NCBI GenBank assembly: GCA_015680905.1
Contig: JADFTS010000022.1
Location: 558,001 to 622,000, forward strand
From: Coptis chinensis
Taxonomy: Eukaryota > Streptophyta > Magnoliopsida > Ranunculales > Ranunculaceae
DNA: 64,000 bases
Direction: 5' to 3'
A program made the translations under genes and the position numbers. Below are positions 1 to 51,511 of this stretch, in pieces (position 1 is the stretch's first letter; the number at the start of each line of letters is the position of its first letter). The notes under the pieces are model-generated. The model was not told where the DNA came from and did not search any database. It saw only the letters and a program-made list of their open reading frames with translations.

Positions 1-90
1 GGCATCTCTAAGTACCTTTGTCCAAATTTAAAATGATGGCAATTTTGATATTTAGTTTAAAATCAGAGGGAAATAGAAATGTTACTCCTT

Positions 91-97
91 TATAAGG
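91..97 (+). promoter_or_regulatory. Putative TATA box of the DUF761 gene
   Basis: TATAAGG lies 37 bases before the first in-frame ATG (134) and 121 bases before the ATG at 218. A plant start site about 30 bases downstream of a TATA box would fall near 125. That leaves almost no leader for the ATG at 134 and favours a later start. Only the motif and the spacing support this. Confidence 0.4.
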
Positions 98-217
98 GAA
101 CTTGGACAAAACCTTGCACTCCCCAACCAAAAAATGGTTGGGCCATTCCAGTTGAAATCCCTACACTCTCTTCATGTTTTTACTATGAAGTCTCCATTCT
201 ACAACCCAACACACTCC

Positions 218-28186: not shown

Positions 28187-29251
28187 TTATTCAACACGTG
28201 AATGGGAAGGTCCACTAATATTTGTGGAACTACCTCCCCGTTTGCTTCTGCCTGTTGAGACACTGTATGGATAATACGGATCAGGAGGTGATCCAAGCTG
28301 TATATTCCCCTTGAGTACCTGCACAACATCACTCATCGTTGGCCTGTCCTCGGGCCTATATTGAGTAGACCATAACGCCGTCGTACATAATATCTTTGCT
28401 TTCAATCTATCCGAGTCCTTGATGGCAAAATACTCCATAACTTCATCTAGTTGTCCTTTCTTAAATTTCTCCCAAACTAGTCCAGGAATCCAATTTTGAC
28501 CATCAACATTCCTCCTTCTCCCCAAAACTTCAAACAACATCATTCCAAAACTGTAAGTATCGCTTTTAGGAGTCACTGGCATTTGCATCCACATTTCCGG
28601 GGCAGCATAGGTACGTGTCCCCCTAAACTCAATCAAAGATATATGGCTTAAATCTCTTCGAGATATCTTAGCCATTCCAAAATCTGCAACTTTAGGAGAA
28701 AGTTTTGAGTCAAGGAGCACATTACCAGGCTTTACGTCATAGTGAATTATTTCCTCATCACAACCCTCGTGCAAATAAGATAGCCCTTTTGCTATCCCAA
28801 TTGCAATTTCATACAAATTCTCCCACTGTAAATTAAGGTGATTCTCATATAAAACCTTATCCAAAGATCCATTCTCTAAGTACTCATACACAAGTGCTTT
28901 CATATTGACCTCAAAACAATACCCAAAAAGCCTAACTAAGTGTCGATGCAAAGTACTACTCATTGTTCTCACTTCAGCCATGAATGTGTATTCCATAACA
29001 TTCACGGAGTTGTCTCTTAGTTTCTTCACGGCTACTGGCACACCATCAGAAAATTTACCTTTAAAGACATCTCCATACGCACCAGAACCTATTTGATTAG
29101 TGAAATTTTCTGTAATTCTCGAAAGTTCGCCACTTGAATATTGTTGCATTTTCTTTCTTTCTAGTTCACCTAAAAACATTCCCATTGAACTTGGGCTATT
29201 GGCTCCTTTCTCTGGAGATTTCTCCTGGGCCTCATCAGAACCTCTTGAAAC
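28187..29251 (-). CDS. Kinase exon of locus A (receptor-like-kinase-type Ser/Thr kinase)
   Basis: The terminal exon encodes 354 residues of a complete eukaryotic protein kinase. Numbered from the ATG at 29185: glycine loop GSGAYG (33-38), VAVKK lysine 54, helix-C glutamate 71, catalytic loop HYDVKPGN (148-155), DFG 168-170, APE 195-197, and R281 near the end. Tyrosine stands where RD kinases have arginine, so this is a non-RD kinase. The GRRRN and HYDVKPGNVLL signatures suit the LRK10L/PR5K-like receptor-kinase clade. There is no signal peptide or membrane segment. The reading frame is open upstream of the ATG to an acceptor (TTTCTTACAG) at 29252, in phase 0. The exon can therefore be joined in frame to the phase-0 end of callose-synthase-like exon 4 at 30373. 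The conserved cysteine of the ALWC motif is serine here, unlike copy B. If no upstream exon is used, the ATG at 29185 gives a free-standing 332-residue kinase. Confidence 0.88.
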   Translation of the reverse strand, partial: VSRGSDEAQEKSPEKGANSPSSMGMFLGELERKKMQQYSSGELSRITENFTNQIGSGAYGDVFKGKFSDGVPVAVKKLRDNSVNVMEYTFMAEVRTMSSTLHRHLVRLFGYCFEVNMKALVYEYLENGSLDKVLYENHLNLQWENLYEIAIGIAKGLSYLHEGCDEEIIHYDVKPGNVLLDSKLSPKVADFGMAKISRRDLSHISLIEFRGTRTYAAPEMWMQMPVTPKSDTYSFGMMLFEVLGRRRNVDGQNWIPGLVWEKFKKGQLDEVMEYFAIKDSDRLKAKILCTTALWSTQYRPEDRPTMSDVVQVLKGNIQLGSPPDPYYPYSVSTGRSKRGGSSTNISGPSHSRVE

Positions 29252-30372: not shown

Positions 30373-32177
30373 CTCTTCTGGAATCAACCTCTCTGCACCT
30401 TCTGGAGGTAACTCCTTCGTAAGCTCCTCTAGCACTTCCCCTAAAACCTTCAGAGTTGCAAAAACCCTTTCCTGTTTCATGGTTTTCTGCTCCAACCTAA
30501 CACATTGAATAATTAAAATATAAACAACAAGTAGAACTCTTAAAACTAGATTTTCCAAAAGGAAATTGGGATACTATGAAAAATTAAAAAGAAGAATATA
30601 TGCAAAAGAAGAGGCAGACTTTGATATAAGGCAAACTAAAAATCAAGGGAGTGTTGGTTTTTCAGAAAACATAACTTTTTAGTTCATTGACAATATTTAG
30701 CAAGGGAAACGTTGTCAGTGAATTTCAGGCAAGATCTATTCAAATCTTCTCGGGCCTTTTAGTGTTGAACCCTATTAGTTTAAATATGTTGTATGCAGAT
30801 TTTTTTTAGCTTAGCAACTTAACACAGATGAGTGAAAGAGACAGATGTTTATCTTAATCATAACCACGAGATAGTATGTAATCGCTTCAGGTACACAAAG
30901 AATGTCTACTTGAATGAAAAAAAAAAAAAAAAAAAAAAAAAAAACAGGTGCCGACTAGCAAAGTCGGTAAAACCTTTGGGTGATGATACCAGAGGTCCGT
31001 CGAACCCCGCCAGCATCAAAGAGTTACTGATCTCATTTAAAATAGACTTGCCAATTAAAAAAAACAAAAAAAAAATACCACAAAGAGAATATATGGGAAC
31101 AAAAACATATAAAAAATCGCACGCCCACACACACAAGTAATTATGTGGAAGATGTTACAGTTGTAGGACATACCCTCTAGAAGCACCAGACTCCCTTAAT
31201 TTGACTTCGTCCTCACGAAGCTCATCTACCATGTTCTTCGCTCTGTAATGCTTGTAAAATTCCTGTAAGCGAGTAATATCCTGATTCCGATCTATGCTTC
31301 CACGTTCCCTCTTTTCAAACGTTTCCTGAAAATTTGAACAAGCCCACCAAAATGGAACTCAACTTTCAAGACGCTGTCACGCACACCCATAACTCTTGCA
31401 CAAATAAGACTATAAAAGTGAGAGTCCCAGTCCTAACAAAAAACTTGTGGGATAAAACACCAAAAATATGTGGAAGTCCAAGTGCACATGCAAATGATAC
31501 ATGCTTACCATTCTACTCCTAGGGATAGAAGTAAAAAATAATCTAAATCAACAAAAAAGGAGTACATAACATACCTTTGCGACAGCCATCAACCCAGTCT
31601 TGAATTGTAAAACACCTCTTCCCTCGCTATTGGGGTCCAAGTTCAGTGCCAATGAGTAAGCTCGGTCGCACACTACATGGAGTAATACAGCACTAACTAA
31701 CAATCAAAAAGTTGCATCCTAGGCTCCTAGCTAGATGCGGAAAAAGGACAATAAATGGAGGTAATGAAATCCACAACATAGGGCACAAGTAGCCTATTCA
31801 TGTTGACTAATCCAGTTTCAATCTTGATAATATTTTTCGTAAACCATTGAAACGCATGAATGAATAAAAACAGGTTGAGTAATAAAACCTCATAAATCGA
31901 CATTTTTTATATTAATTTTGATAACTATAAATGATGGATTCAAAGTTAGAGTAAGTAAAATCCAAAACAATAAATTAGTCTCTCTAACTAAGATAAAGTA
32001 CATACAGATTCTGGGGACACTAGGATCTTGGTTTTGAATTTCATCAGCAGCTATAAGAATAGCATCAATAATAGCTCTATTCTTATTCTCCAGGAAAGTT
32101 GGAACTAGACATGCGCGCACTAATCGCTCCCAATTCTCTTCAACTCCTCCAGATCCGTTGTTGTTATTGTTCAAGCC
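30373..32177 (-). CDS. Module A5: callose-synthase N-terminal-like exons 1-4
   Basis: Exons lie at 32006-32177, 31575-31672, 31174-31325 and 30373-30496 (546 bases, 182 codons, all open). Exon 1 encodes NWERLVRACLV and AADEIQNQDPSV. Exon 2 gives SLALNLDPNSEGRGVLQFK. Exon 3 gives GSIDRNQDITRLQEFYKHY. Exon 4 gives ERVFATLKVLGEVLEELTKE. These are hallmarks of the cytosolic N-terminus of callose synthases of the CalS9/CalS10 type (Vta1/callose-synthase N-terminal domain). Every boundary has GT-AG signals, most of them GTATGT donors. Phases are 0 in, 1, 0, 2, 0 out. Relative to module A4, exon 1 has an internal deletion. There is no in-frame ATG at the start, so the module needs an upstream exon. 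It is the module nearest the kinase and pairs with B3. Confidence 0.72.
30946..31070 (+). mobile_element. tRNA-derived SINE insertion in intron 3 of module A5
   Basis: TAGCAAAGTCGG matches the Pol III A-box pattern TRGCNNAGYNGG. About 40 bases on, GTCGAACCCC resembles a B-box core. The element ends in an A-rich tail (about 31056-31075) and sits in a poly-A stretch. Modules A4 and B3 lack it at the same intron position, so it is a recent insertion specific to A5. Confidence 0.65.
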
Positions 32178-32471: not shown

Positions 32472-33824
32472 CTCTTTTGGGATCAACCTCGCTGCATCTT
32501 CTGGAGGTATATTCTTTGTAAGCTCCTCCAGTACTTCCCTTAAAACCTTCAGAGTTGCAGAAACCCTTTCCCATTTCATACTTTCCTGGTCCAGTCTAAC
32601 ATATTTATTCAAAGAATAATTAAAAGGTAAACATCAAGTAGAACTACTAAAAATAGATCTTCCAAAAGGAAATGGGGATGCTATAAAAAATCATAATGAA
32701 GAATACTCAAAAGAAAAGGCAGACTTTGATATAACGTAAACTAAAAACTAAGGGTGTGTATGCAAAAGAAAAGGCAGATTTTGATATATGGTAAGCTAAA
32801 AACTAAGGGTGTCTTGGTTTGCCAGAAAACATAACTTTTTAGTTCGTTGGTAGTATTTAGCAAGGGAAACGTTATTAAAAAAAATCAGGAAAATTTATGA
32901 AAATCTTATCGGGAATTTTAGTTTTGAACCCTATTTAAAAATGTATGGAGACTTTTTGAGCTTTGTTTCTTAACACAGATGAGTGAAAGAGACAGATGTT
33001 TATCTTAATCGTAACCACGAGATAGTATGTAATCGCTTCATGTATACAGAGAATGTCTACTTGAATGAACAAGTGAAAAGTAAAAAAAAAAGGAAAATAC
33101 CACAGAGAAATATACGGGAACAAAAACATATAAAAAATCGCACGCCCACACACACAAACGCACACACAAATAATTATGTGGAAGATGTTACAGTTGTAGG
33201 ACATACTCTCCAGAAGCACCAGCCTCCCTTAATTTGATTTCGTCCTCACGAAGCTCATCTACCTTGTTCTTCGCTCTGTAATGCTTGTAAAATTCCCATA
33301 AGCGAGTAATATCTTGATTCTGATCTATGCTTCCACGTTCCCACTTTGCAAGCTTCTGCTGAAAATGGAACATAAGTTTATCACTGATACCTATATATTT
33401 TCCCAAGGGATGTAAGGAATAAGTACCTTGATGACAGACATCAAGCTGGTCTTGAACTGTAAAACACCTCTTCCCTCGTTGTTTGGGTCCAAGTTTTGTG
33501 CCAAGGTGTAAGCATGCTCGCACACTAGACAAGAATAATAATTAGAAAAAGGGTAAACCCTAGTTTCAATTAAATTAAAGTAGTAGGATACAAACATATT
33601 CTGGAGATGTTGGGATCTTGGTCTTGAATCTCATCAGCAACTCTAAGAATAGCATCGATGCCTCCATTATTTTCAAGAAAAGTGGGAACAATGCTAGCAA
33701 TGCCAGTTGAAGCAGCATGAAGTCGGCCGCCAGATCTATCTCTCTCCTTTCGGAGAATAGCACGTACTAGTCTCTCCCAATTCTCTTCAACTCCTCCAGA
33801 TCTGTCGTTGTTATTGTTCGAGCC
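32472..33824 (-). CDS. Module A4: callose-synthase N-terminal-like exons 1-4 (fullest copy)
   Basis: Exons lie at 33596-33824, 33427-33524, 33207-33358 and 32472-32595 (603 bases, 201 codons, all open). Exon 1 is the longest of the eight modules. It keeps RAILRKERDRSGG, then a segment ending IVPTFLENNGG and IDAILRVADEIQDQDPN, which is how real callose synthases of the CalS9/CalS10 group look; the other modules have lost part of it. Exon 2 gives AQNLDPNNEGRGVLQFKT, and exon 3 begins QKLAKWERGSID. The donor after exon 1 is GTTTGT rather than GTATGT, and exon 4 ends PKE instead of PEE. This is probably the least altered descendant of the captured gene. There is no in-frame ATG before exon 1, and the acceptor (ATTTTTAG) continues the chain from module A3. 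Confidence 0.75.
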
Positions 33825-34104: not shown

Positions 34105-36298
34105 CTCTTCTGGGATCAACCCCGCTGCATCTTCTGGAGGTACATTATTTGTAAGCTCCTCCAGTACTTCCCTTAAAACCTTCAGAGTTGCAGAAACCCT
34201 TTTCCATTTCATAGTTTCCCGGTCCAGCCTAACATATTTATTCAAAGAATAATTAAAAGATAAACATCAAGTATAACTACTAAAAATAGATCTTCCAAAA
34301 GGAAATGGGGATACTATAAAAAATCATAATGAGGAATACGCAAAAGAAAAGGTAGACTTTACTTTGATATAACGTAAACTAAAAACTAAGGGTGTGTACG
34401 CAAAAGAAAAGGCAGATTTTGATATAAGGCAAGCTAAAAACTAAGGGTGTCTTGGTTTGCCAGAAAACATAACTTTTAGTTCGAATAGTATTTAGCAAGG
34501 GAACAGTTCTGTTCTTAAAAATTTCAGGAAAATTTATGAAAATCTTATAGGGCATTTTAGTTTCGAACCCTATTTAAAAACGTATGGAGACTTTTTGAAC
34601 TTAGCAATGTAACACAGATGAGTGAAAGACAGCGATGTTTATCTTAATCGTAACCAAGACATAATAATAGCTTCATGTACACAGAGAACGTTGTTGGATA
34701 TTTGAATGGTAAAACTGAAACCGTATATGTGTCGCTCTTGCATAAGCCAATTACTTGGGAGTTACTAGGTAGTCTGTGCATAGTGGATCAACCTAATGAA
34801 TGACGGTTCAAAGAGGTCTGATGTCTGTTTGAGATGCCTCTAATAGACACAACATTTTGAAACATTGTAGTGTCCATTCAAGTTAGTGTCTCAACAGACA
34901 CAATGCCAGATAGATCTCCAAGCCTTTTCAAATAGACATCCCAACACTAGACTTGATCATCTTTCTTTTGCATTATTGAATCTGTAAGTTATTTTATTTT
35001 GTTTCTTTTTCAGTTATTGTTACTCTCCATCATTCTCTATTACTGTTTTCCAAGAAACAGTGGTGATGGTATCTATACTGTATCAATCTCTTTACTATCT
35101 ATCTTGTCCAGTACACATATTTATTGCAGAAGAATCAATATATATAGATATAACTTTTCTAACAAACGTCTACTTAAAATGAATACGTCAAAAGTGAAAA
35201 CAAAGCAAAATACCACAATGACAACATACTAGAACAAAAATAAAAATATATATATATAAAATTGCGCACCCATATGTATATTAGGTGGAAGATGTTACAG
35301 TTTTAGGACATACCCATGTCGAAAAACACCAAAAGTACTGGACTCTCTCAACATTAATTCGTAATGCTTGTAATCCTTGTAAAATTCTTGTAAGCGAGTA
35401 ATATCCTGATTCCGATCTATGCTTCCACGTTCCCTCTTTTCAAACCTTTCCTGAAAATTTGAACAAGCCCACCAAAATGGAACTCAACTTTCAAGACGCT
35501 GTCACGCACACACCCATAACTCTTGCACAAATAAGACTATAAAAGTGAGAGTCCCAGTCCTAACAAAAAACTTGTGGGATAAAACACCAAAAATATGTGG
35601 AAGTCCAAGTGCACATGCAAATGATACATGCTTACCATTCTACTCCTAGGGATAGAAGTAAAAAATAATCTAAATCAACAAAAAAGGAGTACATAACATA
35701 CCTTTGCGACAGCCATCAACCCAGTCTTGAATTGTAAAACACCTCTTCCCTCGCTATTGGGGTCCAAGTTCAGTGCCAATGAGTAAGCTTCATGACACTA
35801 CATGGAGTAATACAGCACTAACTAACAATCAAAAAGTTGCATCCTAGGCTCCTAGCTAGATGCGGAAAAAGGATAATAAACAGAGGTAATGAAATCCACA
35901 ACATAGGGCACAAGTAGCCTATATATGTTGACTAATCCAGTTTCAATCTTGATAATATTTTTCGTAAACCATTGAAACGCATGAATGAATAAAAACAGGT
36001 TGAGTAATAAAACCTCATAAATCGACATTTTTTATATTAATTTTGATAACTATAAATGATGGATTCAAAGTTAGAGTAAGTAAAATCCAAAACAATAAAT
36101 TACTCTAACTAAGTTAAAGTACATACAGATTCTGGGGACACTAGGATCTTGGTTTTGAATTTCATCAGCAGCTATAAGAATAGCATCAATAATAGCTCTA
36201 TTCTTATTCTCCAGGAAAGTTGGAACTAGACATGCGCGCACTAATCGCTCCCAATTCTCTTCAATTCCTCCAGATCTGTGGTTGTTATTGTTCAAGCC
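34105..36298 (-). pseudogene. Module A3: callose-synthase-like exons with 2-base deletion in exon 2
   Basis: Exons lie at 36127-36298, 35702-35797, 35314-35450 and 34105-34228. Exons 1, 3 and 4 are open. Exon 2 is 96 rather than 98 bases: the usual TGTGCGACCGAGC start has become TGTCATGAAGC, which gives a TGA with the normal acceptor. An AG ten bases further in (exon 35702-35787, 86 bases) would restore the frame and lose four residues, so loss of function is not certain. Exon 3 is a hybrid: its 5' half (FEKRERGSIDRNQ) is of the A5 type and its 3' half (HYELMLRESSTFG) is of the A1 type, a sign of gene conversion or unequal crossing-over. The exon 4 donor is GTTCAT, the weakest in the set. Confidence 0.65.
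34691..35165 (+). mobile_element. Intron-3 insertion, copy in module A3
   Basis: About 475 bp is present between GAACG and ACGTCTACTT, where modules A4, A5 and B3 read straight through as GAATGTCTACTT. Ends are TTGTTGGA and, on the opposite strand, TTGTTAGA. ACG flanks both sides, suggesting a 3-bp target duplication. No coding frame is seen. Copies occur at the same place in modules A1, A2, B1 and B2. The superfamily is not recognised. Confidence 0.5.
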
Positions 36299-36576: not shown

Positions 36577-38280
36577 CTCTTCTGGGATCAACCTCGCTGC
36601 ATCTTCTGGAGGTATATTCTTTGTAAGCTCCTCCAGTACTTCCCTTAAAACATTCAGAGTTGCAGAAGCCCTTTCCCATTTCATAGGTTCCTGGTCCAGC
36701 CTAACATATTTAATCAAAGAATAATTAAAAGGTAAACATCAAGTAGAACTACTAAAAATAGATCTTCCAAAAGTAAATGGGTATACTATAAAAAATCATA
36801 ATGAAGAATACACAAAAGAAAAGGCAGACTTTGATATAACGTAAACTAAAAACTAAGGGTGTGTACGCAAAAGAAAAGGCAGATTTTGATATAAGGTAAG
36901 CTAAAAACTAAGGGTGTCTTGGTTTGCCAGAAAAACATAACTTTTTAGTTTGTTGGTAGTATTTAGCTAGGAAAACGTTATCGAAAAATTTCAGGAAAAT
37001 TTATGAAAATCTTATCGGGGATTTTAGTTTTGAACCCTAATTAAAAACGTATGGAGACTTTTTGAGCTTAGCAACTTAACACAGATGAGTGAAAGACAGC
37101 GATGTTTATCTTAATCGTAACCAAGAGATAGTAATAGCTTCATGTACACAGAGAACGTTGTTGGATATTTGAATGGTAAAACTGAAACCGTATGTGTCGC
37201 TCTTGCATAAGCCAATTACTTTGGAGTTACTAGGTAGTCTGTGCATAGTGGATCAACCTAATAAATGACTCTTTAAAGAGGTCTGACGTCTGTTTGAGAT
37301 GTCTTTAATAGACACAACATTTTGAAACATTGTAGTGTCCATTCAAGTTAGTGTCTCAACTCTTCAACAGACACAATGCCAGATAGATTTTCAAGCCTTT
37401 TCAAATAGAATTCACAACACTAGACTCGATCATCTTTCTTTTGCATTATTGAATCTGTAAGTTATTTTATTTTGTTTCTACACTATCGTGGTGAGGCGGT
37501 AGACTTTGCAGAAGAATCAATATATATAGATATAACTTTTCTAACAAAATGAATATGTCAAAAGTGAAAACAAAGCAAAATACCACAAGGATAACATACT
37601 AGAACAAATATATATATAGGTGGAAGATGTTACAGTGTTAATTCGTAATGGTTGTAAAATTCCTGTAAGCGAGTAATATCCTGACTCCGATCTATGCATC
37701 CACCTTCCCTGGTCTTTGCAATCTTTAGCTGAAAATTTGAACAAGCCCACAAAAATGGAACTCAACTTATAACTCTTGCAAAAATAAGACTATATACAGA
37801 AGTGAGAGTCCCAGTCCTAAGAGACAACTCATGGAAGAAACATCTGGCAGCCCTAGTGCAGATGCAAATGATACATGCTTACCATTCAAGTATCAAAATA
37901 ATCTAAATCAACGAAAAAGGATTACCTTAAGGATAGACGTCATCCCAGTCCTGAATTGTAAAACACCTTGTCCCTCGCAATTGGGGTCCAAGTTGCGTGC
38001 CAATGAGCCAGCATGTTCGCACACTACATGGAGTGATAAAAATTAATTGTGATGACTATAATAAATGAAAGAATTAGTCTCTCTAAGCTAGTACATACAG
38101 ATTCTGGAGACAGTAGGATCTTGGTCTTGAATTTCATCAGCAACTTCAAGTATAGATTATTTTCAAGATTATATCTGTATCACTGTTTGTATCCCTATCT
38201 CTCTCCTTTCGACAAGCACGCACTAATCTCTCCCAATTCTCTTCAACTCCTTCAGATCTGTCGTTGTTATTGTTCAAGCC
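36577..38280 (-). pseudogene. Module A2: damaged callose-synthase-like exons
   Basis: Exon 1 (38099-38280) is 182 bases, not congruent with the other copies. An insertion after GATATAATC shifts the frame and brings TGA after IYT. Exon 2 (37926-38023) is intact. Exon 3 (37638-37728) has lost its 3' third and its GTATGT donor by a deletion that also removed flanking intron, and reads into TAA. Exon 4 (36577-36700) is intact (LDQEPMKWERASATLNVL). Neither defect can be bypassed within the module, and skipping exons 1 and 3 would not keep frame. A transcript would have to skip all of A2 to stay open. It pairs with B2, whose exons are intact, so the damage is specific to locus A. Confidence 0.72.
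37158..37547 (+). mobile_element. Intron-3 insertion, internally deleted copy in module A2
   Basis: Starts TTGTTGGATATT like the others but lacks about 100 bases of its right half (junction near 37480) and the CGTCTACTTA flank at its right end. Confidence 0.5.
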
Positions 38281-38558: not shown

Positions 38559-40500
38559 CTCTTCTGGGATCAACCTCGCTGCATCTTCTGGAGGTATATT
38601 CTTTGTAAGCTCCTCCAGTACTTCCCTTAAAACATTCAGAGTTGCAGAAACCCTTTCCCATTTCATACTTTCCTGGTCCAGCCTAACATATTTAATCAAA
38701 GAATAATTAAAAGATAAACATCAAGTAGAACTACTAAAAATAGATCTTCCAAAAGGAAATGGGGATACTATAAAAAATCATAATGAAGAATACACAAAAG
38801 AAAAGGCAGACTTTGATATAACGTAAACTAAAAACTAAGGGTGTGTACGCAAAAGAAAAGGCAGATTTTGCTATAAGGTAAGCTAAAAACTAAGGGTGTC
38901 TTGGTTTGCCAGAAAACATAACTTTTTAGTCTGTTGGTAGTATTTAGCTAGGAAAACGTTATCGAAAAATTTCAGGAAAAATTTATGAAAATCTTATCGG
39001 GCATTTTAGTTTTGAACCCTAATTAAAAATGTATGGAGACTTTTTGAGCTTAGCAACTTAACACAGATGAGTGAAAGACAGCGATGTTTATCTTAATCGT
39101 AACCAAGAGATAGTAATAGCTTCATGTACACAGAGAACGTTGTTGGATATTTGAATGGTAAAACTGAAACCGTATGTGTCACTCTTGCATAAGCCAATTA
39201 CTTTGGAGTTACTAGGCAGTCTGTGCATAGTGGATCAACCTAATAAATGACTGTTTAAAGAGGTCTGATGTCTGTTTGAGATGTCTCTAATAAACACAAC
39301 ATTTTGAAACATTGTAGTGTCCATTCAAGTTAGTGTCTCAACAGACACAATGCCAGATAGATCTCCAAGCCTTTTCAAATAGAATTCACAACACTAGACT
39401 CGATCAATCATCTTTCTTTTGCATTATTGAATCTGTAAGTTATTTTATTTTGTTTCTTTTTCAGTTATTGTTACTCTCCATCATTCTCTATTACTGTTTT
39501 CCAAGAAACAGTGGTGACGGTATCTATACTGTATCAATCTCTTTACTATCTATCTTGTGTGTGTACACTATCATGGTAGGGCGGTAAACTTTGCAGAAGA
39601 ATCAATATATATAGATATAACTTTTCTAACAAACGTCTACTTAAAATGAATACGTCAAAAGTGAAAACAAAGCAAAATACCACAATGACAACATACTAGA
39701 ACAAAAATAAAAAAATATATATATAAAATTGCGCACCCATATGTATATTAGGTGGAAGATGTTACAGTTTTAGGACATACCCATGTCGAAAAACACCAAA
39801 AGTACTGGACTCTCTCAACATTAATTCGTAATGCTTGTAATCCTTGTAAAATTCCTGTAAGTGAGTAATATCCTGACTCCGATCTATGCGTCCACCTTCC
39901 CTGGTCTTTGCAATCTTTAGCTGAAAATTTGAACAAGCCCACAAAAATGGAACTCAACTTATAACTCTTGCAAAAATAAGACTATACATATAGAAGTGAG
40001 AGTCCCAGTCCTAAGAGACAACTCATGGGAGAAACATCTGGCAGATGCAAATGATACATGCTTACCATTCAAGTATGAAAATAATCTAAATCAACGAAAA
40101 AGGATTACCTTAACGACAGACGCCATCCCAGTCTTGAATTGTAAAACACCTCGCCCCTCGCAATTGGGGTCCAAGTTGAGTGCCAATGAGTAAGCATGTT
40201 CGCACACTACATGGAGTGATAAAACCTGAGATAAACTTAACTGTGATGACTATAATAAATGAAGGAATTAGTACATACAGATTCTGGAGACATTAGGATC
40301 TTGGTCTTGAATTTCATCAGCGGCTTCAAGTATAGATTTGATTATGTTTGTGTCCCTACGAAGAAGAAGACAAGCACGCACTAATCGCTCCCAATTCTCT
40401 TCAACTGAATTGATGTCACTAAAAGTAAAGTGGAAATCGTCTTCAACTGAATTGATTTCACTAAAAGTAACGTGGAAATCGTCTTCAACTCCCCAGACAT
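38559..40500 (-). CDS. Module A1: first callose-synthase-like module of locus A
   Basis: Exons lie at 40279 to about 40500, 40109-40206, 39781-39920 and 38559-38682; donors are GTATGT, GTAATC, GTATGT and GTCCGT. Exon 1 encodes VEENWERLVRACLLLRRD, then IKSILEAADEIQDQDPNVSRI. Exon 3 ends HYELMLRESSTFGVFRHG. Two 14-codon repeats (VEDDFHFTFSDINS type) precede the conserved part. The only nearby ATG (40498-40500) is in the +1 frame and stops at TAG inside NWERL. Alignment with other modules suggests one base was lost in the GGAGGA stretch just after it, which would explain the frame offset. Translation start is therefore unresolved. Upstream lie the promoter region and a B12D gene. Confidence 0.62.
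39140..39632 (+). mobile_element. Intron-3 insertion, copy in module A1
   Basis: 493 bp with the same TTGTTGGA start and TTGTTAGA end (opposite strand) flanked by ACG. A GTAAGT followed 30 bases later by TTTCTTTTTCAG lies on its plus strand; this is too short to be an intron. Confidence 0.5.
40406..40489 (-). repeat. 42-bp in-frame tandem duplication in the first exon of locus A
   Basis: Two 42-base copies (40406-40447 and 40448-40489) differ at two bases and encode 14 residues each, so frame is kept. Locus B lacks the duplication. Confidence 0.85.
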
Positions 40501-40812
40501 GTCGCTTTTATTTAAATCCTTCTTATTAAAACCCTTCAAATACCTTTTAAAAATATTCATCGTTCAGCCTAATTATTGTTGACAGGACGATGATAAGAAA
40601 TGAGATTGTAGCTAGGACAACACGTACTTCCACCCGACACACGTGTGGGTCTGACTCAGTTTGCCTTTTATATTAATACATCAATAGTAAACACCAAGTA
40701 TGAGATCACAGCTCAAGTTCATTGTTAAACCAATGTTTGGGATTACAAAACAACAATCAACAGAAATTTGTACTCCTTTGGACAAAAACTAGTACATCCT
40801 ACTTTCTAACAC
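40501..40812 (-). promoter_or_regulatory. Presumed promoter region of locus A
   Basis: About 310 bases separate the first exon of locus A from the stop of the B12D gene, which reads the same way. A palindromic CACGTG (G-box core) sits at 40640-40645, about 140 bases before the ATG at 40500. T/A-rich TATA-like words (TTTAAAAGG, TTTAAATAAAAG) lie within 65 bases of it. Bases 40501 to about 40670 are homologous to sequences on both sides of the Helitron near locus B. Confidence 0.4.
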
Positions 40813-41219
40813 TCAAGCACCAGTTTGTTTTGGCCCTGAGAAGAATTGGTTGAGGGATGGCATTATCTCAGGGGATCGATTCCGGACGTACTTATATTTC
40901 TCACCCTCTGCAAAATTGTCAAGCACCCCTGCAGCTCTGTTTTGTTTGGTGACCCTGGAAAAAACAAACAAATCAATAGATATATAATATAATAGCTAAC
41001 GAACACATCAACCTAGCTACTGATGTAGTTCACATATAACCGTGACCAGTAACCTGGCATGTATATGTCTGCACGTATGTTTTCGTTTGGGTGGAGGGTT
41101 TAGGGACCTGTTAATAGGCAGAAAACTCACCGCACTTCAGGGTTGGTGCGAAGGTTCCGCAGCAACTGCATGCTGCACAAACCAGCAACTGCTACGACCG
41201 GAGCAAGAAGTGGATAAAC
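40813..41219 (-). CDS. B12D-family protein, last two exons (5' exon not found)
   Basis: Exon 41131-41219 encodes VYPLLAPVVAVAG, a hydrophobic segment, then LRNLRTNPEVR. The donor is GTGAGT. Exon 40813-40954 (acceptor TTTTCCAG) continues in phase 2 with VTKQNRAAGVLDNFAEGEKY, then a segment ending RSPEIMPSLNQFFSGP and a stop. This is the B12D/MLRQ-like family: small, single-membrane-segment proteins of about 90 residues, associated with mitochondria and with seed, senescence and low-oxygen responses. The usual first exon, encoding a short start ending in R-P-E, should precede a phase-0 acceptor at 41220. I could not find it up to 43.2 kb, so it may be far upstream, very short or lost. The two exons themselves show no damage. 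Confidence 0.8.
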
Positions 41220-43409: not shown

Positions 43410-44474
43410 TTATTCAACACGTGAATGGGAAGGTCCACTAATATTTGTGGAACTACCTCCCCGTTTGCTTCTGCCTGTTGAGACACTGTATGGATAATAC
43501 GGATCAGGAGGTGATCCAAGTTGTTTATTCCCATTAAGTAACTGCACCACATCACTCATCGTTGGCCTGTCCTCGGGCCTATATTGAGTACACCATAACG
43601 CGGTCGTACATAATATCTTTGCTTTCAATCTATCCGAGTCCTTGATGGCACAATACTCCATAACTTCATCTAGTTGTCCTTTCTTAAACTTCTCCCAAAC
43701 TAGTCCAGGAATCCAATTTTGACCATCAACATTCCTCCTTCTCCCCAAAACTTCAAACAACATCATTCCAAAACTGTAAGTATCGCTTTTAGGAGTCACT
43801 GGCATTTGCATCCACATTTCTGGGGCAGCATAGCTACGTGTCCCCCTAAACTCAATCAAAGATATATGGCTTAAATCTCTTTGAGATATCTTAGCCATTC
43901 CAAAATCTGCAACTTTAGGAGAAAGTTTAGAGTTAAGGAGCACATTACCAGGCTTTACGTCATAGTGAATTATTTCCTCATCACAACCATCGTGCAAATA
44001 AGATAGCCCCTTTGCTGTCCCAATTGCAATTTCATACAAATTCTCCCACTGTAAATTAAGGTGATTCTCATATAAAACCTTATCCAAAGATCCATTCTCT
44101 AAGTACTCATACACAAGTGCTTTCATATTGACCTCAAAGCAATACCCAAAAAGCCTAACTAAGTGTCGATGCAAAGTACTACTCATTGTTCTCACTTCAG
44201 CCATGAATGTGTATTCCATAACATTCACGGAGTTGTCTCTTAGTTTCTTCACGGCTACTGGCACACCATCAGAAAATTTACCTTTAAAGACATCTCCATA
44301 CGCACCAGAACCTATTTGATTAGTGAAATTTTCTGTAATTCTCGAAAGTTCGCCACTTGAATAGTGTTGCATTTTCTTTCTTTCTAGTTCACCTAAAAAC
44401 ATTCCCATTGAACTTGGGTTATTGGCTATTTTCTCTGGAGATTTCTCCTGGGGCTCATCAGAACCTCTTGAAAC
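43410..44474 (-). CDS. Kinase exon of locus B (receptor-like-kinase-type Ser/Thr kinase)
   Basis: This is a 354-residue paralogue of 28187-29251. The 332 residues from the ATG at 44408 differ at 11 positions (97% identical). All catalytic residues are kept: GSGAYG loop, VAVKK, HYDVKPGN, DFG and APE. Differences include I131T and R176Q, and F253C and S273C, which restores the ALWC cysteine. As in locus A, the frame stays open upstream to an acceptor (TTTCTAACAG) at 44475 in phase 0, with no ectodomain or membrane segment. The predicted role is a cytoplasmic non-RD serine/threonine kinase; non-RD kinases of plants are often tied to immune signalling. Its upstream exons in this locus are the three intact callose-synthase-like modules. 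The sequence 3' of the stop is also duplicated between the loci. Confidence 0.88.
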   Translation of the reverse strand, partial: VSRGSDEPQEKSPEKIANNPSSMGMFLGELERKKMQHYSSGELSRITENFTNQIGSGAYGDVFKGKFSDGVPVAVKKLRDNSVNVMEYTFMAEVRTMSSTLHRHLVRLFGYCFEVNMKALVYEYLENGSLDKVLYENHLNLQWENLYEIAIGTAKGLSYLHDGCDEEIIHYDVKPGNVLLNSKLSPKVADFGMAKISQRDLSHISLIEFRGTRSYAAPEMWMQMPVTPKSDTYSFGMMLFEVLGRRRNVDGQNWIPGLVWEKFKKGQLDEVMEYCAIKDSDRLKAKILCTTALWCTQYRPEDRPTMSDVVQLLNGNKQLGSPPDPYYPYSVSTGRSKRGGSSTNISGPSHSRVE

Positions 44475-47400
44475 CTGTTAGAAATAAGCAACATTTGTAT
44501 AAACATTAAGCTGAACATCTCATGGCAATCATTTAAATGACATCACCAAACACTGTAATGAAGAGATAATAGAAATGAAAGGGAGTAAAAAGATCAAACA
44601 GTCCAAAGGTCCTAAACAATTACAGCAATATAATAAGAAGCTCAGCCTATTCTAGGATAACAAAGCCATTGGAAATGACCCTTCCTCCATATCCTTCAGA
44701 AACAAGTGAGGGGGGGTTGAGGTGAATACACATAAACATCGTTCAACTTCCATTCCTTAATTAAATCCCCAAACTCCTTGTTGAACTGATAAAAAATACT
44801 ATAATACTAATAAAATCACAATCAAATCCCACCTCCATTACTTGAAATCCTCAATAGCTCACTAAACAATGTACAATTAATCCCTACAACATATGACTGT
44901 AGAAACAAATTATTACCATTTCCTTTTCAGTAGACTCAGGCCTCGCAATTAGCCTCTGAAAAAGAAATTTGTCCATACAGGGGAGCTCCCCGTTGCTCTT
45001 GCACTGTAACTAATTTAACCGGGGGGGGGGGGTTGTTATTATTATTATTATAATATTAATAGACTAAAAGAAGAAAGAAATCTTCAAAATTACCGTAGAT
45101 CCCTGAATTGAATTCCAGTCAGCTTCAACTTGTCCAAGATTTACACCAAAACAGCACTAAATTGAATTCCATCCAAAATGGCTTATTCACTTTAAACAAC
45201 AATCTAAACTGGAGTCAAACTGTGATTATATCATATTTAAAATTTTTAAAGATTAAAGGTGGGACTTAGTAGTCATAATAAAACGAGATTCAGCAGTAAG
45301 AGCCCTAAGTGAAATAGATTGTATGTTACCAACAATTATTTGGATAAAATAGTATCTGAATTACAATTTAATGTGGAAAGGGAATAAATTAATAAGTTCA
45401 ATAGAATCAGAAATCAGATTCGGCACGGAATTGGAATCTAAAAATTGCAGGCTCTTACGGAGAAATAATTTTTTTTTTGTAAACAACACAAATAGTGAAT
45501 GAAGTAACAAATCAAATTTAGCACATATGAACTCAAAAAACGGACCTCTTCTGGAATCAACCTCTCTGCACCTTCTGGAGGTAACTCCTTCGTAAGCTCC
45601 TCTAGCACTTCCCCTAAAACCTTCAGAGTTGCAAAAACCCTTTCCCGTTTCACGGTTTTCTGCTCCAACCTAACACATTGAATAATTAAAATATAAACAG
45701 CAAGTAGAACTCTTAAAAATAGATTTTCCAAAAGGAAATTGGGATGCTATGAAAAATGAAAAAGAAGAATATACGCAAAAGAAGAGGCAGACTTTGCTAT
45801 AAGGTAAACTAAAAATCAAGGGAGTGTTGGTTTTCCAGAAAACATAACTTTTTAGTTCATTGACAGTATTTAGCAAGGGAAACGTTGTCAGTGAATTTCA
45901 GGCAAAATCTATGCAAATCTTCTTGGGCCTTTTAGCGTTGAACCCTATTAGTTTAAATATGTATGCAGATTTTTTTTAGCTTAGCAACTTAACGCAGATG
46001 AGTGAAAGAGACAGATGTTTATCTTAATTGTAACCACGAGATAGTATGCAATCGCTTCAGGTACACAGAGAATGTCTACTTGAATGAATAAGTGAAAAGT
46101 AAGAAAAGAAAACTACCACAGAGAATATATGGGAACAAAAACATATAAAAAATCGCACGCCCACACACAAACGCCCACACAAATAATTATGTGGAAGATG
46201 TTACAGTTGTAGGACATACTCTCCAGAAACACCAGACTCCCTTAATTTGATTTCGTCCTCACGAAGCTCATCTACCTTGTTCTTCGCTCTGTAATGCTTG
46301 TAAAATTCCTGTAAGCGAGTAATATCCTGATTCTGATCTATGCTTCCACGTTCCCTCCTTTCAAACATTTCCTGAAAATTTGAACAAGCCCACCAAAATG
46401 GAACTCAACTTTCACGACACTGTCACACACACCCATAACTCTTGCAAAAAGAAGACTATAGAAGTGAGAGTCCCAGTCCTAAGAGACAAGTCAGACAACT
46501 CATGGGAGAAACATCTGGCAGCCCTAGTGCAGATGCAAATGATACACGCTTACCATTCAAGTATCAAAATAATCTAAATCAACGAAAAAGGATTACCTTA
46601 ATGACAGACGCCATCCCAGTCCTGAATTGAAAAACATCTCTTCCCTCGCTATTGGGGTCCAAGTTCAGTGCCAATGAGTAAGCTCGGTCGCACACTACAT
46701 GGAGTAATACAACACTAACTAACAATCAAAGAGTTGCCTCCTAGGCACCTAGCTAGATGCAGAAAAAGGACAATAAACGGAGGTAATGAAATCCACAACA
46801 CAGGGCACAAGTAGCCTATTCATGTTGACTAATCCAGTTTCAATCTCGATAATATTTTTCGTAAACCATTGAAACGCATGAATGAATAAAAACAGGTTGA
46901 GTAATAAAACCTCAATTCCTCAAAAATCGACATTTTTTATATTAATTTTGATAACTATAAATGATGGATTCAAAGTTAGAGTAAGTAAAATCCAAAACAA
47001 TAAATTACTCTCTCTAACTAAGTTAAAGTACATACAGATAATGGGGACACTAGGATCTTGGTTTTGAATTTCATCAGCGGCTATAAGAATAGCATCAATA
47101 ATAGCTCTATTCTTATTCTCCAGGGAAGTTGGAACTAGACACGCGCGCACTAATCGCTCCCAATTCTCTTCAACTCCACCAGATCTGTTGTTGTTATTGT
47201 TCGAGCCCTAAGTGAAATAGATTGTATGTTACCAACAATTATTTGGATAAAATAGTATCTAAATTACATTTTAACGTGGAAAGGGATTCAAAAGTCGATA
47301 GATTAGTAAGTTTGGCAATTGAATTAGGCTAAATAGAATCAGAAATCAGATTCGGCACGGAATTGGAATTGGAATCTAAAAAATACAGGCTCTTCGGGTG

Positions 47401-48625
47401 AAAGAAAAGAAAATTAATTGCAAACGACAGAAATAGTAAATGGAGGAAGTAACAAAATCAAATCTAGCACATAAGAACTCAAAAACCGGACCTCTTCTGG
47501 GATCAACCTCGCTGCATCTTCTGGAGGTATATTATTTGAAAGCTCCTCCAATACTTCCCTTAAAACATTCAGAGTTGCAGAAACCCTTTCCCATTTCATA
47601 CTTTCCTGGTCCAGCCTAACATATTTATTCAAAGAATAATTAAAAGATAAACATCAAGTAGAACTAATAAAAATAGATCTTCCAAAAGGAAATGGGGAAC
47701 CTATAAAAAATCATAATGAAGAATACACAAAAGAGAAGGCAGACTTTGATATAACGTAAACTAAAAACTAAGGGTGTGTACGCAAAAGAAAAGGCAGATT
47801 TTGCTATAAGGTAAGCTAAAAACTAAGGGTGTCTTGGTTTGCCAGAAAACATAACTTTTTAGTCTGTTGGTAGTATTTAGCTAGGAAAACGTTATCGAAA
47901 AATTTCAGGAAAAATTTATGAAAATCTTATCGGGCATTTTAGTTTTGAACCCTAATTAAAAACGTATGGAGACTTTTTGAGCTTAGCAACTTAACACAGA
48001 TGAGTGAAAGACAGCGATGTTTATCTTAATCGTAACCAAGAGATAGTAATAGCTTCATGTACACAGAGAATGTTGTTGGATATTTGAATGGTAAAACTGA
48101 AACCGTATGTGTCACTCTTGCATAAGCCAATTACTTTGGAGTTACTAGGCAGTCTGTGCATAGTGGATCAACCTAATAAATGACTGTTTAAAGAGGTCTG
48201 ATGTCTGTTTGAGATGTCTCTAATAAACACAACATTTTGAAACACTGTAGTGTCCATTCAAGTTAGTGTCTCAACAGACACAATGCCAGATAGATCTCCA
48301 AGCCTTTTCAAATAGACATCACAACACTAGACTCGATCATCTTTCTTTTGCATTATTGAATCTGTAAGTTATTTTATTTTGTTTCTTTTTCAGTTATTGT
48401 TACTCTCCATCATTCTCTATTACTGTTTTCCAAGAAACAGTGGTGACGGTATCTATACTGTATCAATCTCTTTACTATCTATCTTGTGCGTGTACACGAT
48501 CATGGTGAGCCGGTAGACTTTGCAGAAGAATCAATATATATATAGATATAACTTTTCTAACAAACGTCTACTTAAAATGAATACGTCAAAAGTGAAAACA
48601 AAGCAAAATACCACAATGATAACAT

Positions 48626-48684
<59 letters not shown>

Positions 48685-50792
48685 CGCGCACCCATATGTA
48701 TATTAGGTGGAAGATGTTAAAGTTTTAGGACGTACCCATGTCCAAAAAGACTAGACTCTATCAACTTTAATTCGTAATGCTTGTAAAATTCCTGTAAGTG
48801 AGTAATATCCTGACTCCGATCTATGCGTCCACCTTCCCTCGTCTTTGCAATCTTTATCTGAAAATTTGAACAAGCCCACAAATATGGAAGTCAACTTATA
48901 ACTCTTGCAAAAATAAGACTATAGAAGTGAGACAACTCCTGGGAAAAACATCTGGCAGATGCAAATGATACATGCTTACCATTCAAGTATGAAAATAATC
49001 TAAATCGAAGAAAAAGGGTTACCTTAATGACAGACGTCAACCCAGTCCTGAATTGTAAAACACCTTGTCCCTCGCAATTGGGGTCCAAGTTGCGTGCCAA
49101 TGAGCCAGCATGTTCGCACACTACATGGAGTGATAAAATTAATTGTGATGACTATAATAAATGAAAGAATTAGTCTCTCTAAGCTAGTACATACAGATTC
49201 TGGAGACAGTCGGATCTTGGTCTTGAATTTCATCAGCGGCTTCAAGTATAGATTCGATTATATCTGTATCACTGTTTGTATCCCTACGAAGAAGACAAGC
49301 ACGCACTAATCGCTCCCAATTCTCTTCAACTCCTCCAGATCTGTCGTTGTTATTGTTCAAGCCCTAAGTGAAATAGATTGTATGTTACCAACAATTATTT
49401 GGATAAAATAGTATCCGAATTACAATTTAACGTGGAAAGGGATTCAAAAGTCGATAGATTAGTAAGTTTGGCAATTGAATTAGGCTAAATAGAATCAGAA
49501 ATCAGATTCGGCACGTAATTGGAATCTAAAAAATACAGGTTCTTCGGGTGAAAGAAAAGAAAATTAATTGCAAATGACAGAAATAGTAAATGGAGGAAGT
49601 AACAAAATCAAATCTAGCACATAAGAACTCAAAAAACGGACCTCTTCTGGGATCAACCTCGCTGCATCTTCTGGAGGTATATTCTTTGTAAGCTCCTCCA
49701 GTACTTCCCTTAAAACATTCAGAGTTGCAGAAACCCTTTCCCATTTCATACTTTCCTGGTCCAGCCTAACATATTTAATCAAAGAATAATTAAAAGATAA
49801 ACATCAAGTAGAACTACTAAAAATAGATCTTCCAAAAGGAAATGGGGATACTATAAAAAATCATAATGAAGAATACACAAAAGAAAAGGCAGACTTTGAT
49901 ATAACGTAAACTAAAAACTAAGGGTGTGTACGCAAAAGAAAAGGCAGATTTTGCTATAAGGTAAGCTAAAAACTAAGGGTGTCTTGGTTTGCCAGAAAAC
50001 ATAACTTTTTAGTCTGTTGGTAGTATTTAGCTAGGAAAACGTTATCGAAAAATTTCAGGAAAAATTTATGAAAATCTTATCGGGCATTTTAGTTTTGAAC
50101 CCTAATTAAAAACGTATGGAGACTTTTTGAGCTTAGCAACTTAACACAGATGAGTGAAAGACAGCGATGTTTATCTTAATCGTAACCAAGAGATAGTAAT
50201 AGCTTCATGTACACAGAGAACGTTGTTGGATATTTGAATGGTAAAACTGAAACCGTATGTGTCACTCTTGCATAAGCCAATTACTTTGGAGTTACTAGGC
50301 AGTCTGTGCATAGTGGATCAACCTAATAAATGACTGTTTAAAGAGGTCTGATGTCTGTTTGAGATGTCTCTAATAAACACAACATTTTGAAACACTGTAG
50401 TGTCCATTCAAGTTAGTGTCTCAACAGACACAATGCCAGATAGATCTCCAAGCCTTTTCAAATAGACATCACAACACTAGACTCGATCATCTTTCTTTTG
50501 CATTATTGAATCTGTAAGTTATTTTATTTTGTTTCTTTTTCAGTTATTGTTACTCTCCACCATTCTCTATTACTGTTTTCCAAAAAACAGTGGTGACGGT
50601 ATCTATACTGTATCAATCTCTTTACTATCTATCTTGTGCGTGTACACTATCGTGGTGAGGCCGTAGACTTTGCAGAAGAATCAATATATATATAGATATA
50701 ACTTTTCTAACAAACGTCTACTTAAAATGAATACGTCAAAAGTGAAAACAAAAATACAAAATAACATACTAGAACATGATAACATATATAGA

Positions 50793-50847
<55 letters not shown>

Positions 50848-51511
50848 CGCGCACCCATATCTATATTAGGTGGAAGATGTTAAAGTTTTAGGACGTACCC
50901 ATGTCCAAAAAGACTAGACTCTATCAACTTTAATTCGTAATGCTTGTAAAATTCCTGTAAGCGAGTAATATCCTGACTCCGATCTAGTCCACCTTCCCTC
51001 GTCTTTGCAATCTTCATCTGAAAATTTGAACAAGCCCACAAATATGGAAGTCAACTTATAACTCTTGCAAAAATAAGACTATAGAAGTGAGACAACTCAT
51101 GGGAGAAACATCTGGCAGATGCAAATGATACATGCTTACCATTCAAGTATGAAAATAATCTAAAACGAAGAAAAAGGGTTACCTTAATGACAGACGTCAA
51201 CCCAGTCCTGAATTGTAAAACACCTTGTCCCTCGCAATTGGGGTTCAAGTTGAGTGCCAATGAGTAAGCATGTTCGCACACTACATGGAGTGATAAAATT
51301 AAATGTGATGACTATAATAAATGAAGGAATTAGTCTCTCTAAGCTAGTACATACAGATTCTGGAGACAGTAGGATCTTGGTCTTGAATTTCATCAGAGGC
51401 TTCAAGTATAGATTCGATTATGTTTGTGTCCTTACGAAGAAGACAAGCACGCACTAATCGCTCCCAATTCTCTTCAACTGAATTGCTGTCATCATTGTCT
51501 TCCTCGTTTTT
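43410..51511 (-). CDS. Locus B gene model: three callose-synthase-N-terminal modules plus kinase
   Basis: Joining the twelve module exons (B1-B3) to the kinase exon gives an open frame of about 862 residues without any internal stop. Module totals are 465, 513 and 546 bases, all multiples of three, and the kinase exon is 1065 bases. Junctions between modules (exon 4 donor GAAGAG|GT, exon 1 acceptor CACTTAG|GGC) are phase 0 on both sides. Introns between modules are about 280 bases. The product would be soluble, with three repeats of the cytosolic N-terminal domain of callose synthase and a C-terminal non-RD kinase. I know no described protein of this layout. Unresolved points are the start codon and the cryptic acceptor at 45305. 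The alternative is a separate 332-residue kinase gene beside a non-coding module array. Confidence 0.5.
44475..45545 (-). other. Intron-like DNA between module B3 and the kinase exon
   Basis: About 1.07 kb, paralogous to 29252-30372. It includes a 12-G run and an ATT repeat at about 45021-45052 that differ from locus A, and fewer copies of the 54-bp minisatellite. No receptor ectodomain coding is seen. Confidence 0.6.
45290..45304 (-). other. Remnant module acceptor with 4-codon alternative end (locus B)
   Basis: TTTCACTTAG is followed by GGC TCT TAC TGC TGA, as at 30118-30132. Use of this acceptor would end the protein without the kinase. It marks the breakpoint between module array and kinase-side DNA, shared by both loci. 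Confidence 0.6.
45546..47207 (-). CDS. Module B3: intact callose-synthase N-terminal-like exons 1-4
   Basis: Exons lie at 47036-47207, 46597-46694, 46220-46371 and 45546-45669 (546 bases, 182 codons, all open). Exon 1 encodes NWERLVRACLVPTSLENKN and ends SVPII; exon 2 gives LNLDPNSEGRDVFQFR; exon 3 gives ERGSIDQNQDITRLQEF, then DELREDEIKLRESG; exon 4 gives LEQKTVKRERVFATLKVLGE. Donors are GTATGT, GTAATC, GTATGT and GTCCGT. It is the paralogue of A5, but exon 2 is closer to A1. It joins in phase 0 to the kinase exon at 44474. Confidence 0.74.
47492..49363 (-). CDS. Module B2: intact callose-synthase N-terminal-like exons 1-4
   Basis: Exons lie at 49195-49363, 49023-49120, 48736-48857 and 47492-47615 (513 bases, 171 codons, all open). 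Exon 1 encodes ENWERLVRACLLRRDTNSD, then IIESILEAADEIQDQDPTV. Exon 3 is short (122 bases) and lacks the KNKVDELREDE segment present in A4, A5 and B3. Donors are GTATGT, GTAACC, GTACGT and GTCCGG. Intron 3 holds the 491-bp insertion and a (TA)n run. It is the intact counterpart of broken module A2. Confidence 0.73.
48073..48563 (+). mobile_element. Intron-3 insertion, copy in module B2
   Basis: 491 bp with TTGTTGGA and TTGTTAGA (opposite strand) ends. The left flank is ATG and the right flank ACG, so the proposed 3-bp target duplication has one mismatch here. Confidence 0.5.
48631..48682 (+). repeat. (TA)n microsatellite in intron 3 of B2
   Basis: A run of about 25 TA repeats. A similar run (50797-50845) stands at the same place in B1; modules A1 and A3 have only 5-6 repeats there. 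Expansion is specific to locus B. Confidence 0.9.
49642..51511 (-). CDS. Module B1: first callose-synthase-like module of locus B
   Basis: Exons lie at 51355 to at most 51511, 51183-51280, 50899-51017 and 49642-49765. All are open from the conserved VEENWERL (valine codon at 51476-51478), giving at least 155 codons. Exon 3 has a 3-base in-frame deletion relative to B2 (RI to L) and begins with an in-frame ATG (51015-51017). The frame is open upstream only to a TAA at 51512-51514 and has no ATG; two ATGs at 51490-51495 are in the +1 frame and reach TAG within NWERL, as in locus A. So either an upstream exon is missing, translation starts internally (for example at 51017), or the locus is not translated as drawn. 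A Helitron begins 135 bases upstream. Confidence 0.62.
50223..50713 (+). mobile_element. Intron-3 insertion, copy in module B1
   Basis: 491 bp, nearly identical to the copy in B2 and flanked by ACG on both sides, with the same TTGTT ends. Its similarity to B2 shows that B1 and B2 arose by a recent duplication including introns. Confidence 0.5.
50797..50845 (+). repeat. (TA)n microsatellite in intron 3 of B1
   Basis: About 24 dinucleotides at the same intron position as 48631-48682. Confidence 0.9.

Follow-up and report, generated by a model that had tools for sequence, protein, structure and literature searches.

What does a gene encode in which three copies of the N-terminal region of a callose synthase (CalS) stand upstream of the kinase exon of a receptor-like kinase? 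Such an arrangement, referred to here as locus B, is found on the minus strand of a 64,000-nucleotide stretch of the Coptis chinensis genome (the window; contig JADFTS010000022.1, G000:C13:558001-622000 of the 936-Mb genome). The balance of the sequence evidence leans towards locus B making one fused protein, in which the CalS-derived modules would precede the kinase. The gene probably belongs to a kinase family in which the N-terminus is replaced time and again.

Overall organization of locus B

The exons were re-derived by script. Locus B (C13:601.4-609.6 kb) joins into a frame of 872 residues from 13 exons, with 12 introns that all have GT-AG boundaries and with no internal stop codon. The initial annotation had described modules B1, B2 and B3 and the kinase exon as open and joined through GT-AG junctions in a single frame, and this is borne out, the length being 872 instead of about 862 residues. 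On the minus strand, the modules span 51508-49642 (B1), 49363-47492 (B2) and 47207-45546 (B3), and the kinase exon spans 44474-43410 with its stop included. The exons are as follows.

51355..51508, minus strand, B1 exon 1, the NWERLVRA.. segment; open, with a GT donor; true 5' end undefined
51183..51280, minus strand, B1 exon 2; GT-AG; 98 nucleotides, the length in the parent CalS
50899..51017, minus strand, B1 exon 3; GT-AG, frame kept
49642..49765, minus strand, B1 exon 4; GT-AG; 124 nucleotides, the length in the parent CalS
49195..49363, minus strand, B2 exon 1; AG acceptor and GT donor
49023..49120, minus strand, B2 exon 2; from the script, with GT-AG introns
48736..48857, minus strand, B2 exon 3; from the script, with GT-AG introns
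47492..47615, minus strand, B2 exon 4; from the script, with GT-AG introns
47036..47207, minus strand, B3 exon 1; from the script, with GT-AG introns
46597..46694, minus strand, B3 exon 2; from the script, with GT-AG introns
46220..46371, minus strand, B3 exon 3; from the script, with GT-AG introns
45546..45669, minus strand, B3 exon 4; phase-0 donor towards the kinase, the parent exon 4/5 junction being in the same phase
43410..44474, minus strand, kinase exon KB; 354 residues plus stop, RLK/Pelle-type, HYDVKPGN (non-RD), no transmembrane segment

The left end of B1 at 51508 is an arbitrary cut. Exon 1 of B1 has a donor and lacks both an acceptor and an in-frame ATG, which the initial annotation had missed. 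Within the 872-residue model, B1 exon 3 supplies the first in-frame Met. The Kyte-Doolittle mean over 19 residues peaks at 0.75 in the model, which is therefore without a transmembrane segment.

Origin of the modules

A six-frame search of the whole genome with module B3 (cut-off E <= 0.001; 53 candidates, all scored) gave 35 exon-sized matches. Those outside the window are located at four sites, of which one (C13:417.7-418.4 kb) shares its contig with the window. The exons there read MVVSGVGVEENWERLVRAILRRERDRS..., and the four exons, their boundaries and their phases are those of the modules. All six later pieces of this gene match the Pfam family Glucan_synthase (PF02364; 5.9e-4 to 1.4e-27), two of the six above the curated cut-off. 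Judged from these matches, the donor is a callose synthase gene located about 170-190 kb from the arrays on the same contig. A second, more distant CalS gene is found at C5:36.63 Mb. Following the Arabidopsis types, we take the C13 gene to be of the CalS10 type and the C5 gene to be of the CalS9 type. The initial annotation had proposed that exons 1-4 of a CalS9/CalS10-type gene were captured and then amplified, and the donor is now found, with an exon-by-exon match.

No FKS1-like or glucan synthase part follows the modules, as had also been noted in the initial annotation; after exon 4 come remnants of VAP exons and the kinase. When the parent DNA from exon 4 on (L021 to 7000) is compared with the window, exon 4 and its flank match, together with one further match of 50 bases. 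On the 5' side, the sequence upstream of B1 has matches of only 15-37 bases to the parent CalS outside the module exons (best E 0.004), so short that no captured promoter is recognisable. Two other loci (L023 at C4:58.52 Mb and L024 at C5:61.12 Mb) hold copies of about 600 bp of the CalS10-type gene from exon 4 onward, with 92-95% identity; no other CalS exon was matched near them.

Modules B1, B2 and B3 match no Pfam family at 1e-3. The weak matches (E<=10) of A4 (a module of the second array, see below) and B3 include no Vta1, in a search whose filters drop most weak matches, and a search of the PDB with the modules gave nothing useful. A Vta1/MIT-type N-terminal domain was not recognised in the modules by these searches. 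As reported in PMC5683620, CalS10 is without Vta1 in most species, and among dicots CalS9 has it in Arabidopsis, Brassica and Eutrema only.

The kinase exon

The kinase exon matches the Pfam family PK_Tyr_Ser-Thr (8.7e-45). Its best matches in the PDB are BAK1 and BRI1, and FERONIA is also among the closest solved structures. The motifs HYDVKPGN, VAVK and DFG are kept, HYDVKPGN being present both in KB and in the kinase exon of the second array (KA). By these features the kinase is a canonical member of the RLK/Pelle group, of the receptor-like cytoplasmic kinase (RLCK) type without a transmembrane segment. Kinases that have no Arg before the catalytic Asp are classed as non-RD, and this is the case in both KA and KB; the non-RD kinase of the initial annotation is confirmed in this way, as well as by the domain match.

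In seven paralogues outside the window, the match starts at residue 1 or 2 of this exon and takes in the linker VSRGSDEPQEKSP ahead of an inner ATG. Since these paralogues all extend so far, the linker is old, and it looks like protein sequence. The same paralogues are opposed to a model in which the kinase exon is a complete gene starting from the ATG near 44408, and this model was rejected. An ordinary LRK10-type receptor kinase was also considered, and was dropped because the near relatives show captured domains.

A kinase family with changing upstream partners

A search of the whole genome with the kinase exon produced 2123 candidates, the best of which were scored, giving 115 matches. The best 30, two of which are the window's own, were taken with 1.5 kb of flank. 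In 24 of these 30, the window's two included, the exons of another gene or a second kinase are located within 1.5 kb upstream; the 24 are not independent, as the partner queries were taken from these same loci and many are close kin, and independent support comes from Pfam. The partners are CalS (2, in the window), ArfGAP (2), NOT3 (2), MSP/VAP (2), cytochrome b5 (2), RanBP1 (9), PB1 (1), an unnamed protein (MGEDNQEEQRLKK.., no Pfam match; 1), a SANT-type C-terminal piece (1) and a second kinase (2). Nothing was recognised in the upstream 1.5 kb of the other six.

Pfam matches above the cut-off were obtained for MSP (1.7e-29), Cyt-b5 (1.2e-19), PB1 (3.6e-16), Ran_BP1 (5.6e-16) and Not3 (6.1e-9). 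For ArfGap, the joined pieces are above the cut-off (4.2e-14), the last two exons alone give 0.023, and a middle piece was not found. The SANT-type piece is below the cut-off and more than 1.2 kb upstream of the kinase. In three loci a single open frame holds both partner and kinase. This frame has 503 codons in L052 (C7:87.02 Mb), where the partner is PB1; in L040 and L042 it contains the C-terminal part of cytochrome b5. Moreover, L037 (C4:2669.0-2671.6 kb) is a six-exon MSP-kinase gene of 516 residues by predicted splicing, running from ATG to stop with GT-AG introns, and it is for this locus only that a complete MSP-kinase model is claimed; in L039, two of the exons needed for a second such model were not found. 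L035 and L036 each have one TAA at the end of the open frame, which is not counted as a lesion.

The captured pieces end in phase-0 donors (CalS exon 4, ArfGAP ..TPRDVQ in L034 and NOT3 ..YVERNQ in L035), and the kinase acceptor is also in phase 0. In a FastTree tree of the kinase frames (29 of the 30 loci, upstream read-through included; L054, with a short open frame, left out), KA and KB fall in a clade with L033/L034 and L035/L036 (support 0.997), whose nearest neighbours are L037-L039 (0.977). Read from these sequences, the simplest history would begin with a VAP-kinase gene. Its VAP part would have decayed, and 5' pieces of CalS, ArfGAP and NOT3 genes would later have joined upstream in three sublineages.

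Other members of the family have the following arrangements. RanBP1 exons are found upstream of the kinase in L043-L049, L051 and L054, eight of these loci forming two clusters on C8 and the ninth being on C9. In L059 and L060 (C4:95.9 Mb and C24), the kinase is preceded by another of its type, at a distance of about 0.45 kb in L059, and these are possible tandem-kinase genes. L038 (C5:92.85 Mb) is near-identical to the MSP-kinases, and exons of another protein, unnamed and without a Pfam match (MGEDNQEEQRLKKIAA..), stand in place of most of its MSP part.

Locus A and the surrounding sequence

A second array, locus A, is located downstream of locus B at 28.2-40.6 kb, also on the minus strand. 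It consists of five modules and a kinase exon.

38559..40560, minus strand, module A1; its ATG at 40558-40560 is out of frame with the module
36577..38280, minus strand, module A2; exon 1 shifted (13 bases longer than that of B2), exon 3 donor lost
34105..36298, minus strand, module A3; exon 2 two bases short and frame-shifted
32472..33824, minus strand, module A4; open, closest to the parent CalS, synonymous divergence (dS) 0.31
30373..32177, minus strand, module A5; adjoins KA in a position homologous to B3; open, GT-AG, exon 2 set by hand
28187..29251, minus strand, kinase exon KA; 96% identical to KB, with a Pfam match

Exon 3 could be delimited in seven of the eight modules of the window (A2 is without a donor), with lengths of 119, 122, 137, 140 and 152 nucleotides, compared to 164 in the parent. 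All of these are 2 mod 3 and keep the frame. For exon 1, an acceptor marks the start in six modules, and the length is 1 mod 3 in all of these except A2.

Between the two loci, a B12D gene (NADH-ubiquinone reductase MLRQ subunit) is represented by its two final exons (40813-41219, minus strand; Pfam 1.6e-16), and the ATG of A1 is about 250 bases downstream of its stop. A tandem array with units of about 1.3 kb, roughly 81-94% alike, occupies about 24 kb at 2053-25722, and a second one, with units of about 0.85 kb, runs from 56573 to the window end at 64000. An open frame of 214 residues at 77-721 (plus strand) has a C-terminal match to DUF761 (3.7e-17).

Constraint on the modules and the kinase

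The modules differ from the parent with dS values between 0.31 (A4) and 0.60 (B1). The ratio of nonsynonymous to synonymous divergence (omega) on the module branches, a crude estimate that uses the C5 CalS gene as outgroup and excludes the 14 to 33 differences per module left unresolved by it, is 0.32 for A5, 0.36 for A4 and 0.36 for B3 (binomial p against neutrality 0.0003, 0.0014 and 0.0006, respectively). For the kinase, omega is 0.41-0.50 in comparison with L033/L034, 0.43 between KA and KB, and 0.58 between KB and L035.

In the block A5-KA aligned with B3-KB, the introns (2121 bases) carry 17 indels, whereas the exons (1608 bases) are free of them (Fisher p = 8e-5 with all exons taken together). 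The test covers this one pair of blocks, with the 3' flank (82 aligned bases, 3 indels) left out.

The last intron before the kinase

When locus B is compared with the kinase relatives L035 and L036, homology begins at 45304, exactly at an acceptor of the module type, and GGCTC is common to both sides. This breakpoint and two remnants of VAP/MSP exons are located in the last intron.

45290..45304, minus strand, short open stretch after the nearer acceptor, at the fusion breakpoint; GSYC then stop (GSYY then stop in copy A)
44917..44955, minus strand, VAP/MSP exon remnant; aligns with an MSP exon of L037, whose MSP exons are confirmed by Pfam
44696..44785, minus strand, remnant of the next VAP exon (FNKEFGDLIKEWKLNDVYV.., ending in a stop), by alignment with L037

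The alignment of the VAP remnants took in A, B, L033-L037 and L039. A, B and L033-L036 all retain, within their last intron, homology to the final VAP exons of L037, and the six have a TAG at the same position. Against the MSP protein, the remnant is significant for copy A, L033 and L034 (4e-6 to 1e-4) and is not significant for B, L035 and L036 (for copy B, no match at 1e-3). The difference between A and B over about 44.5-44.9 kb is 0-2% in three of four 100-nucleotide windows, 5% in the fourth and 9.5% in the last 21 nucleotides.

Alternative explanations

The initial annotation had described the modules and the kinase as one chimeric protein. The in-frame join is plausible because the kinase exon of relatives is joined to other domains; a single transcript joining both parts is a prediction. 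Several observations in fact weigh against a fused protein, and some of them are located at the junction. The type of acceptor that opens each next module recurs before 45304, where it is closer to B3 exon 4 than the kinase acceptor is; in plants, the nearest acceptor is often used. By way of this acceptor, at least part of the locus B transcripts may terminate at the GSYC stop. The last intron also contains the VAP remnants with their stops, and each of the four differences between A and B in the linker (66 bases, up to the inner ATG) changes an amino acid. Among the relatives, the ArfGAP donor GT is lost in L033, which as a result is not fusable in the same way. These loci could instead be read as two adjacent genes, the module array ending at GSYC-stop as a stand-alone repeat protein and the kinase being transcribed separately from within 45.3-44.5 kb. 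The nearer acceptor and its immediate stop are conserved in A and B, the low divergence over about 44.5-44.9 kb is such as a promoter or 5' untranslated region could show, and kinases are still constrained in relatives with dead VAP exons. However, the acceptor is a copy left by the array at the breakpoint, with GGCTC on both sides, and its conservation may be inheritance; the matches of the seven paralogues reach up to the kinase acceptor, and some relatives are fused in one open frame. Two separate genes are considered rather unlikely.

Further observations also weigh against the fused gene, and concern whether the locus is functional at all. Module B1 is one base out of frame with the upstream ATG of locus B (51563-51561), which is homologous to the ATG of A1; an A7 tract (51513-51507) lies in between, and this frameshift may be an assembly error. 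The ATG of A1 is likewise out by one base, and copy A has a G4 tract at 40494-40491. Copy A is partly decayed, with at least four lesions in A1-A3, three of its five modules, while A4, A5 and KA are open. By the estimate described above, branch omega is 0.61 for B1 (p = 0.047), 0.62 for B2 (0.059) and 0.68 for exons 2-4 of A1 (0.17). It is 0.8-1.5 between recently split modules, reaching 2.5 between B1 and B2 over exons 2-4 (9 nonsynonymous and 1 synonymous differences), and because of these high values the constraint on the modules may have relaxed or turned into diversification. The low values on the module branches could partly predate the capture. Over very short distances, kinase omega is also high, 0.95 between L033 and L034 and 1.12 between L037 and L038. 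The indel test is modest for the module exons alone (Fisher p = 0.03). In addition, divergence is uneven along the A5-KA/B3-KB block, so that gene conversion may blur both the omega and the indel tests. It could be argued from the start frameshifts in both loci, the lesions, the high omega values between recently split modules, the CalS fragments dispersed elsewhere (L023 and L024) and the tandem-repeat surroundings that capture and tandem duplication were genome noise beside a repeat-rich stretch, and that both loci are decaying pseudogenes. This is unlikely, as every exon of locus B after the start is intact across 12 introns, indels are common in the introns of the A5/B3-kinase block and absent from its exons, and the kinase retains its catalytic motifs and omega values of 0.41-0.50 relative to its nearest relatives outside the window.

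A fused protein could also have a different role from the one proposed below. In the initial annotation it was suggested that it could act as a multivalent decoy or scaffold of callose synthase complexes coupled to a kinase. In such a dominant-negative or scaffold protein, three CalS N-termini would bind callose synthase complexes and bring the kinase to them, regulating callose rather than sensing attack. Three copies of one N-terminal region would give avidity, and the N-terminus is retained without the catalytic part. However, this leaves unexplained why the sister kinases are located behind unrelated N-termini, and such a role seems quite improbable. The pattern in the family fits a kinase whose bait domain is exchangeable better than a decoy or scaffold of callose synthase complexes.

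A possible mechanism

For the fused protein that is preferred here, exons 1-4 of a CalS10/CalS9-type callose synthase would have been copied in front of an RLCK-type kinase exon and then triplicated. The kinase exon of this branch has a phase-0 acceptor, through which it would take up new 5' gene pieces in frame. The modules of locus B would be spliced to the kinase exon, and the dead VAP exons would be skipped. It is less certain that the exchanged N-terminus serves as a bait (an integrated decoy) or as a targeting module. The cytosolic kinase would then signal upon engagement of the bait, in locus B by something acting on callose synthase.

Taken together, these steps would describe a kinase surveillance platform of a non-grass flowering plant, Coptis, in which an RLCK-like exon has repeatedly been coupled to N-termini from trafficking, membrane contact, RNA decay and the cell wall. 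The window gene would carry a triplicated CalS bait, as an integrated decoy outside the Triticeae and outside NLRs. This proposal is tentative, and we consider it possible though somewhat doubtful.

Comparison with known systems

The modules have the same exons 1-4, with the same boundaries, phases and sequence (NWERLVRA...ADEIQ...GVLQFKTGL), as CalS9/CalS10 (GSL10/GSL8). In comparison, the window gene is without exon 5 onward and without the glucan-synthase part, and its N-terminal region is repeated. With the receptor-like cytoplasmic kinases it shares the RLK/Pelle domain and the absence of a transmembrane segment, whereas captured N-terminal domains precede its kinase where a short N-terminus is usual. 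A logic shared with the integrated decoys of NLRs is proposed by analogy, in that a copied piece of a host protein would be a bait within a signalling protein. However, there is no NLR domain among the Pfam matches of the modules or the kinase, and the kinase would be the output. Targeting of callose synthases by effectors has been reported: according to an excerpt of a review (PMC12610726), the oomycete effector RxLR3 binds CalS1/2/3, isoforms other than the parent of the window gene.

Among the listed titles and opening lines of abstracts from open-licence literature, none described a CalS-kinase protein, an absence that proves little, and short sequence strings of the module and the kinase gave no mention in open-licence literature.

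The closest parallel is with the kinase fusion proteins of the Triticeae (Sr43, Lr9, Pm4, the Snn3 kinase-MSP and Yr36). As an excerpt of PMC10260397 describes them, they have a kinase with a changing second domain in one protein and many independent fusions, a design that the family of the window gene would share, and MSP is a partner both in Snn3 and in L037. In the same excerpt, they account for 15 of 82 cloned Triticeae resistance genes, the set appears to be unique to the Triticeae, and the second domain is proposed as a possible integrated decoy. The kinase of Sr43 is N-terminal (PMC10260397), whereas in the window gene the captured part is N-terminal and the kinase C-terminal. The window gene differs also in its plant lineage and in its partner, three copies of a CalS N-terminus, and a role in resistance is suggested for it by analogy only. 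If the proposal is true, a kinase family behind exchangeable N-termini in an unrelated plant would mean that this design arises outside the Triticeae. The family members would form a natural series in which the role of the additional domain could be studied, and would indicate which host processes are worth guarding.

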